Assembly: GCA_035275405.1 (NCBI GenBank)
Contig: DATEMU010000015.1
Location: 248,001-312,000 of the forward strand
Length of the DNA: 64,000 nt
Reading direction: 5' to 3'
Source: Phycisphaerae bacterium
GTDB taxonomy: Bacteria > Planctomycetota > Phycisphaerae > UBA1845 > UTPLA1
Shown here: positions 48,239 through 54,668 of the stretch, piece by piece
Layout: each line of letters starts with the position of its first letter
How positions within the stretch are numbered: the first letter of the stretch is position 1
The notes under the pieces: generated by a model
Databases searched by the model: none
What the model saw: the letters and a program-made list of their open reading frames with translations, nothing else
Told to the model about the DNA's origin: nothing
Program-made: the position numbers and the translations under genes

Positions 48239-48613
48239 ATGGCGAGACATGCACCGCGATTTTTGAAGCTCGTCGACGAGGCCAAGAAGGGCATTCGCGA
48301 AACGACGATCGAGGTGGTGAAACCGCGGCTGGATCGCGGGGACAAGTTTGTTCTGGTCGACGTCCGCGAAGAAAGCGAGTGGGCCGCTGGGCATCTGCCC
48401 AAGGCCGTCCACCTCGGCAAGGGCATCATCGAGCGGGATATCGAGCAGGCCATCCCCGATACCAACGCCGAGATCATCGTCTATTGCGGCGGCGGGTTTC
48501 GCTCCGCGCTCACGGCCGAGAGCCTGATGAAGATGGGCTATCAAAATGTCATCTCGATGGACGGCGGCTTTAAGGCCTGGCGCGAGGCGGGGTATCCCGT
48601 TGTGAAGGATTAG
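48239..48613 (+). CDS. Rhodanese-like sulfurtransferase
   Basis: The 124-residue single-domain rhodanese has FVLVDVREESEWAAGHLPKA, the active-site loop VYCGGGFRSA with the catalytic Cys, and the C-terminal DGGFKAWREAGYPVV. It would transfer sulfane sulfur to an acceptor. It is cytosolic, in contrast to the exported rhodanese lipoprotein at 53361. The upp gene follows after about 45 bp. Confidence 0.9.
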   Translation: MARHAPRFLKLVDEAKKGIRETTIEVVKPRLDRGDKFVLVDVREESEWAAGHLPKAVHLGKGIIERDIEQAIPDTNAEIIVYCGGGFRSALTAESLMKMGYQNVISMDGGFKAWREAGYPVVKD

Positions 48614-53360: not shown

Positions 53361-53804
53361 TCACGACTCGGACACGAGACCGTAGCCCGCCTGCTTCCAG
53401 GCGGCGACGCCGCCGTTCAGGATCTTGACGTTGATGAAACCTTTGCCCCGATATTCGGCTGCCCGACGGGCAGCGCTGGCGTCCTTCGGTCAGGCACAAT
53501 AGAAGATGATCTCGCTCTCCTTCGCCAGCGAGGACTCACGGGCCTGCAACTGGTCGAGCGAGAGCGCGCCTTGCAGGTGGTTCTTGTGGAACTTTTCCGG
53601 CTTGTCGTAAGCGCACACCAGGAGGGCAGCGCCCGAATCGATCCGGGGCTTGGCATCCTGCGGGTCGATCCTTGCGATCGCGGTTTGGGGGCCTGCCGCC
53701 TTATGACCGTCGGGTCCTTCTGTGCGAACGTCCCCCTCTTTTGCCGCACAGCTCGCCAGGGAGATGAGAAGTATGACCGCCAGGGATGATCGAAGGCTGT
53801 TCAT
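53361..53804 (-). CDS. Rhodanese-domain lipoprotein, probable selenoprotein (in-frame UGA)
   Basis: The frame starts at MNSLRSSLAVILLISLASCA, a lipoprotein signal with a perfect lipobox (LASC), and ends at 53361 if one UGA (53492-53490) is read through; total 147 codons. The rhodanese domain is continuous across the UGA: IDSGAALLVCAYDKPEKFHK and HLQGALSLDQLQ before it, INVKILNGGVAAWKQAGYG after it. The UGA falls in FYCAUPKDASAAR, where related rhodanese domains have Y-C-x-C-P, so U would replace a loop Cys and form a C-x-U pair. A 7-bp hairpin with a G-first loop lies 22 nt downstream, as expected of a bacterial SECIS. A nonsense mutation is the alternative. Confidence 0.7.
53458..53474 (-). 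promoter_or_regulatory. Candidate bacterial SECIS hairpin
   Basis: On the minus strand GCTGCCC, loop GTC and GGGCAGC form a perfect stem-loop. Its loop begins 22 nt after the UGA at 53490, with G as first loop base, as SelB-bound SECIS elements usually have. Confidence 0.55.
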
Positions 53805-53931
53805 GAAATTCTCCTTGTGCGTCGAGGCTATAGAGACCGGTTCGTCCGGTCAGCACTACCAGAAAGCGCTATCAGAAAGTCTCGGCTCGACATCACAATA
53901 GTAGCTCTTGGGCGGGCGGTTTACCAGGCTT

Positions 53932-54105
53932 CCAGGGATTGAAACCCCTGGCAACCATCTCTCCAGGCGTTGAAACGCCTGGCAATTCCGGCGCGCCGGA
54001 ACGCCCTCCGGGCGACGAAGCCTTGGTGGCAAGAATCCCCCGGTCATTGAGGCAAAAACCCTCCGGTTATGGAGGCAATAACCCCCCGGTCATTGACCGG
54101 GGGCT
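53932..54105. repeat. Array of REP-like hairpins left of the transposase
   Basis: Successive hairpins occur: CCAGGG/CCCTGG around 53932, CCAGGCGTT/AACGCCTGG around 53963, TCCGGCGCGCCGGA around 53987, and two incomplete copies followed by the perfect palindrome with arms CCCCCGGTCA and TGACCGGGGG. Most are followed by GGCAA. The last unit (54069-54105) ends at the transposase stop codon. Confidence 0.8.
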
Positions 54106-54668
54106 CAAAGGGGTTGCGCGCGGGCAAACGGAACGATGAAATCCCACGGCTTGGCGGGAAGCCCTAATTCGAGATTGTGGCGTTCGACGTAATCAATCCT
54201 GTTGCGCACTGCCGCCCGATCAAAACAAAAGCGCTTGTCGTATCCGTCGGTCCAGATAGGGCGGCCGACGCAGAGGCCATAGCGCGCCGCATCCTTGGCG
54301 CATTTTACGATGTCGGGGATGGGGTGGTCCGTGGGCCCCATCACGACGTGGCAGTGCCAGGATTGCACGGTGAGGGCGAGAAGAGCAACGTTCTTTCTTT
54401 GTCGCAACGAGTCTCCGATGCAACGTCCCACGGATAGGAACTGCGACTCGGCGAATAGAAATGGCTTGTGCTGCGAACGGTGCCGATCGGCGGTTTCGAG
54501 TTCCGGATCGGGTGGGAGCGTTTTTCCGTTTTCGACCCAACCGCGCTGATCGCCGCGAAGCCACGTACCATAGGTCGTCAGCGTGATCATCGTGGCGAGG
54601 ATTTGATCCATGGCGAGCGTGATGCTAGGCGCTTGAATTGAGTCCGTCCAATGCGGCAGAATCTGCAT
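54105..54668 (-). CDS. REP-associated tyrosine transposase (Y1, IS200-like)
   Basis: The 187-residue protein is a single-domain HUH nuclease. The HUH pair is WHCHVVMG (H-x-H), preceded by LLALTVQSWHCHVV in a strand, and a Tyr in RIDYVERHNLELGL is the likely nucleophile. YGTWLRGDQRGWVENG near the start is typical of RAYT proteins. No accessory orf of IS605 is present. It is bounded by 37-bp direct repeats (54069-54105 and 54687-54723) that contain a palindrome, so it is probably the housed transposase that spreads these REP elements. Confidence 0.85.
   Translation of the reverse strand: MQILPHWTDSIQAPSITLAMDQILATMITLTTYGTWLRGDQRGWVENGKTLPPDPELETADRHRSQHKPFLFAESQFLSVGRCIGDSLRQRKNVALLALTVQSWHCHVVMGPTDHPIPDIVKCAKDAARYGLCVGRPIWTDGYDKRFCFDRAAVRNRIDYVERHNLELGLPAKPWDFIVPFARAQPL

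Follow-up and report, generated by a model that had tools for sequence, protein, structure and literature searches.

Positions 53361–53804 of the 64,000-nucleotide stretch of Phycisphaerae DNA analysed here (the window) raise the question of whether a UGA codon inside a rhodanese gene truncates its product or is read as selenocysteine (Sec), and what kind of enzyme the second case would give. A preliminary description had proposed a new rhodanese-domain lipoprotein with an in-frame UGA in FYCAUPKDASAAR. The interval proved correct and holds a full coding sequence with a UGA terminator; the strand, missing from that description, is the minus strand. The ATG at 53804 opens a frame of 147 codons in which codon 105 is the single internal TGA, in the context EIIFYCAUPKDASAARRAAEY (Table 1). 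Reading through the UGA does join one uninterrupted rhodanese domain, as had been proposed: the Pfam Rhodanese match runs across it (41.4 bits against a gathering score of 22.2).

Table 1. Features of the rhodanese locus, in window coordinates.
Feature	Position	Strand	Basis or remark
CDS, predicted C-x-U rhodanese selenolipoprotein	53361..53804	−	147 residues including Sec105; terminator TGA 53363–53361
Shine-Dalgarno-like AAGGAG	53811..53816	−	6 nt 5' of the ATG; by sequence
Predicted lipoprotein signal peptide, lipobox L16-A17-S18-C19 (MNSLRSSLAVILLISLASC)	53748..53804	−	sequence, by inspection
Rhodanese domain, residues 49–139, unbroken across the UGA	53388..53660	−	Pfam PF00581, E = 2e-10; AF2 model
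Codon of Cys103, catalytic-loop Cys, first C of C-x-U	53496..53498	−	alignments A2 and A4
UGA codon 105, very probably read as selenocysteine	53490..53492	−	conservation of the UGA column; Sec machinery in the genome
SECIS-like hairpin GCUGCCC-GUC-GGGCAGC	53458..53474	−	15 nt between UGA and stem; conserved in relatives

Relatives were gathered from the order, class and phylum of the window's genome by searches that allowed read-through. Among the genomes searched, 24 genes had UGA at exactly the codon-105 column; they come from 21 genomes and are spread over several families of the phylum. One same-order relative reads FYCGUP with UGA at this column. It had been suggested that homologues be checked for Cys or UGA at this position: five carried Cys (TGC or TGT) and one Ser (TCG), and neither TAA nor TAG was found there in any recovered relative (L076, too decayed, was left out of the count). 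The proposed C-x-U pair (Cys103 and Sec105) stands. A sequencing or assembly error that turned TGC or TGT into TGA has a negligible probability, since TGA stands at the same codon in independent genomes of the order and phylum. Identity of the UGA-form relatives to the window protein was 0.37–0.61 after the UGA and 0.38–0.60 before it; because the two are about equally high, the 3' part appears to be maintained by selection as protein. The gene is scattered in its occurrence: 6 of 397 genomes sampled from the class carried it, and none of 16 other genomes searched in the window's own family did. A scan of genome contigs returned distant, ordinary rhodaneses only, a plasmid scan two distant ones, and a viral scan none.

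The 7-bp hairpin with a 3-nt loop that had been placed 22 nt downstream of the UGA is real, and that distance fits its loop, which starts at nt 23, the stem starting at nt 16. Taken alone, the window's hairpin is not unusual: the sequence here is GC-rich, and 435 of 3000 shuffles of its synonymous codons gave a hairpin at least as stable. It is therefore conservation that carries the argument for a SECIS element. All 24 UGA genes had a hairpin at a shared offset, with the loop 22–26 nt after the UGA and the consensus GCUGCC-GGUCN-GGCAGC; the window, L086 and L087 have the 3-nt GUC loop. The six inner pairs were formed in 95% of cases at the true offset, compared with at most 55% at neighbouring offsets. 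Among 21 distinct sequences, both partners had changed in four of the seven pairs, and 1 of 500 shuffles matched the covariation score. The loop G-U-C was invariant among the UGA relatives, and this hairpin was not found at the corresponding place in the Cys and Ser forms. A hairpin just downstream of the UGA with a G in a small apical loop is the described pattern (PMC1088965), and that arrangement was found here. G23 and U24 are essential in the loop of the E. coli SECIS (PMC8659212); the same loop G and U lie three nucleotides further on here, counted from the U of the UGA. An Rfam search at the locus gave no match. The shared offset and compensatory changes throughout the UGA relatives argue for the SECIS role that the preliminary description had assigned to this hairpin.

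On genomic evidence, the organism is able to decode Sec. All four genes that had been named for a genome check (selA, selB, selC and selD) are present in the window's genome, selC being the tRNA-Sec (71 bits against a cut-off of 47; ARAGORN anticodon TCA). selB scored above its cut-off on contig C12 with selA directly downstream, and selD itself contains an in-frame UGA, in the motif SCAGUAGK. With the window's genome and a decayed-copy genome counted in, selB was found in 19 of 22 genomes carrying the UGA form and in 3 of 6 carrying the Cys or Ser form. The three UGA-form genomes in which selB was not found are G455 and G206 (84–85% complete) and G213 (99% complete), which has a truncated rhodanese copy and is one of the decayed-copy genomes described next.

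A decayed rhodanese gene, with the UGA as an ordinary nonsense mutation and a truncated lipoprotein as product, is highly improbable. In its favour, the standard code reads UGA as a stop, and copies in one other genus (L075, L076 and L077) seem to have decayed, with an internal TAA or a lost N-terminus. Against it, the UGA column recurs in 24 genes, in each of which the frame runs on through conserved sequence and ends normally. The lack of TAA and TAG at the column among recovered relatives, the conserved hairpin and the Sec machinery in the genome stand against decay as well. The pseudogene and sequencing-error readings were both rejected by comparison with relatives. We regard the reading of codon 105 as Sec as close to certain on comparative grounds; SelB and tRNA-Sec would decode it, with the hairpin 15 nt further on as their signal.

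The read-through protein starts MNSLRSSLAVILLISLASC, a signal peptide with an LAS-C lipobox, followed by a linker and then the rhodanese domain. The lipobox that had been reported is present at residues 16–19 by inspection, and a lipoprotein is predicted. Identity and decoding taken together, the gene very likely encodes an envelope-anchored, predicted lipidated selenoprotein of the rhodanese fold with Sec at position 105. The same-order genomes G454 and G455 each carry a signal-less copy (L083 and L084) and a lipoprotein copy (L086, at 1300–1815, and L087), the latter two with a long Ala/Pro/Gln-rich linker. A single origin of the three lipoproteins (window, L086 and L087) was rejected (p-AU 0.005) on a short tree whose deep part is poorly resolved and for a group named after the sequences had been seen.

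How new is such a protein? Rhodanese selenoproteins of the C-x-U type are already catalogued, so the claim of a new selenoprotein holds for the divergent subgroup and its lipoprotein form and not for the type as such. Rhodanese-like form 3 (CxU, TKB26178.1) is listed in Table 1 of a review that credits it to Zhang & Gladyshev 2005 (PMC13188914). The best NCBIfam match of the window protein was NF041203 (rhodanese_LYCAU, "rhodanese-related (seleno)protein"), the model to which form 3 of the review corresponds and with which it has in common a rhodanese domain, a small single-domain core and Y-C-A-U; the window's FYCAU agrees with this motif, which we took from the model name and from the CxU entry of the review. 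The match reached 49.2 bits, however, against a curated cut-off of 115, and covered only positions 52–122 of the 126-position model, and the window protein adds a lipoprotein signal and a linker ahead of the domain. NF041203 was also matched by 19 of 19 aligned relatives, with scores, where listed, of 45–72 bits. Since these lie below the cut-off, we filed the window protein and its relatives as a divergent neighbouring group rather than as members. Automatic annotation probably ends the genes of such a subgroup at the UGA. Rhodanese-like selenoproteins of forms 1, 2 and 4 (UxxS, UxxG; PMC13188914) likewise combine a rhodanese domain with a Sec motif, but a different one; the window protein keeps the catalytic Cys and has Sec two residues later. 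TsoB (NF045694), a rhodanese/DsbD fusion-like double selenoprotein (UxxxxU), is also a rhodanese-related selenoprotein, and its name connects it with an envelope DsbD-like domain; its 572-position fusion model has another Sec spacing and scored 12 bits on the window protein against a cut-off of 805.

We asked whether the domain would act as a sulfurtransferase. An AF2 domain model (pLDDT 88), built from a five-row alignment of the window and related-locus sequences, has the rhodanese fold, with Cys103 directly after a strand and Sec105 in the ensuing loop; a single-sequence AlphaFold model (pLDDT 39) was discarded. The best PDB matches of the model were rhodaneses, GlpE included, and sulfurtransferases and a polysulfide-sulfur transferase were among them. 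Ordinary rhodaneses have their catalytic-loop Cys at the position that aligns with Cys103. GlpE-type thiosulfate sulfurtransferases (1gmx) have the fold and the position of the catalytic loop Cys in common with the window protein, but their loop is shorter and has no second Cys or Sec two residues on. GlpE is also not known to carry a lipoprotein signal. Active rhodanese loops follow CX4R/T or CX5R (PMC10135228). The window loop, C-A-U-P-K-D-A-S, follows neither, being longer than CX4R and devoid of its Arg, and therefore classic sulfurtransferase activity cannot be assumed.

Of the envelope-facing, selenium-dependent sulfur or redox enzyme put forward in the preliminary description, the Sec and the lipoprotein signal stand, and for its enzymatic role we infer a persulfide reductase or sulfur relay facing the envelope rather than a classic cyanide rhodanese. 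In this scheme Cys103 would accept sulfane sulfur from a persulfide, polysulfide or thiosulfate, and Sec105 would then attack or resolve the Cys103 persulfide. Sulfide would be released, or the sulfur handed on, by way of a short-lived selenenylsulfide between Cys and Sec, itself reduced by a thiol partner in the periplasm. Sulfur chemistry, considered on its own, is somewhat favoured, far less firmly than the Sec reading. A plain thiol/selenol oxidoreductase, a peroxidase or a role in handling metalloids (selenite, arsenate or chromate) on the same fold, with no transfer of sulfane sulfur, is less probable, although we take it seriously. The C-x-U-P loop in place of the Arg or Thr of the active motifs would suit it, rhodanese-fold proteins of the Cdc25 type can reduce arsenate, and some members gave weak matches to the ChrE and ExtH models; retention of the catalytic Cys position in all C-x-U and C-x-C members, and the sulfur-transferring enzymes among the best structural relatives, speak against it. 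Recognition of the subgroup would add an envelope-facing selenium-dependent sulfur enzyme to the lineage. No shared gene neighbourhood was found among 20 loci and the window, and nothing there pointed to a substrate; the two largest neighbourhood clusters were other-frame ORFs overlapping the rhodanese itself. In three genomes, belonging to two families, an ORF that looks pirin-like by eye is found close to the rhodanese gene (L089, 6979–7899; L096, 10033–10767; L099, 7122–8237).

Four relatives from four families (L072, L073, L074 and L080) read FY-UGA-GSC-UGA-P; the reading frame is intact before and after this motif, and the hairpin common to the group is present. Both loop cysteines are apparently replaced by Sec in these U-x-U forms, which would make them di-selenol rhodaneses. 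As the catalytic Cys itself is then a UGA, the two residues may not share the work in the same way in every member. A C-x-U copy and a U-x-U copy occur together in one genome (G080), and a single origin of the U-x-U form was not rejected (p-AU 0.09). None of the 119 families covered by the 2026 review (PMC13188914) has a UxU motif. The membrane-anchored form appears to be undescribed, and so, within that review and our word searches of the literature, do the two-selenocysteine relatives. We consider it fairly probable that these genes make up a separate rhodanese selenoprotein subfamily that has been relocated to the envelope on more than one occasion and whose di-selenol U-x-U members are the four relatives above. 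The U-x-U forms raise the question of how one SECIS could serve two UGAs two codons apart, and the C-x-C, C-x-U and U-x-U relatives offer a ready-made series in which the contribution of selenium could be followed from one position of the loop to the other.

Two further observations concern the surroundings of the gene in the window. A second, ordinary rhodanese with the loop YCGGGFRSA is encoded 5 kb away on the plus strand (48239–48613). Just upstream of the gene, positions 53932–54103 contain a pair of CCAGG..TTGAAAC units together with three 27-nt repeats with a spacing of 23 nt; the minus-strand ORF beside them (54105–54668) had no Pfam or NCBIfam match and looks, by eye, like a REP-associated Y1 transposase.
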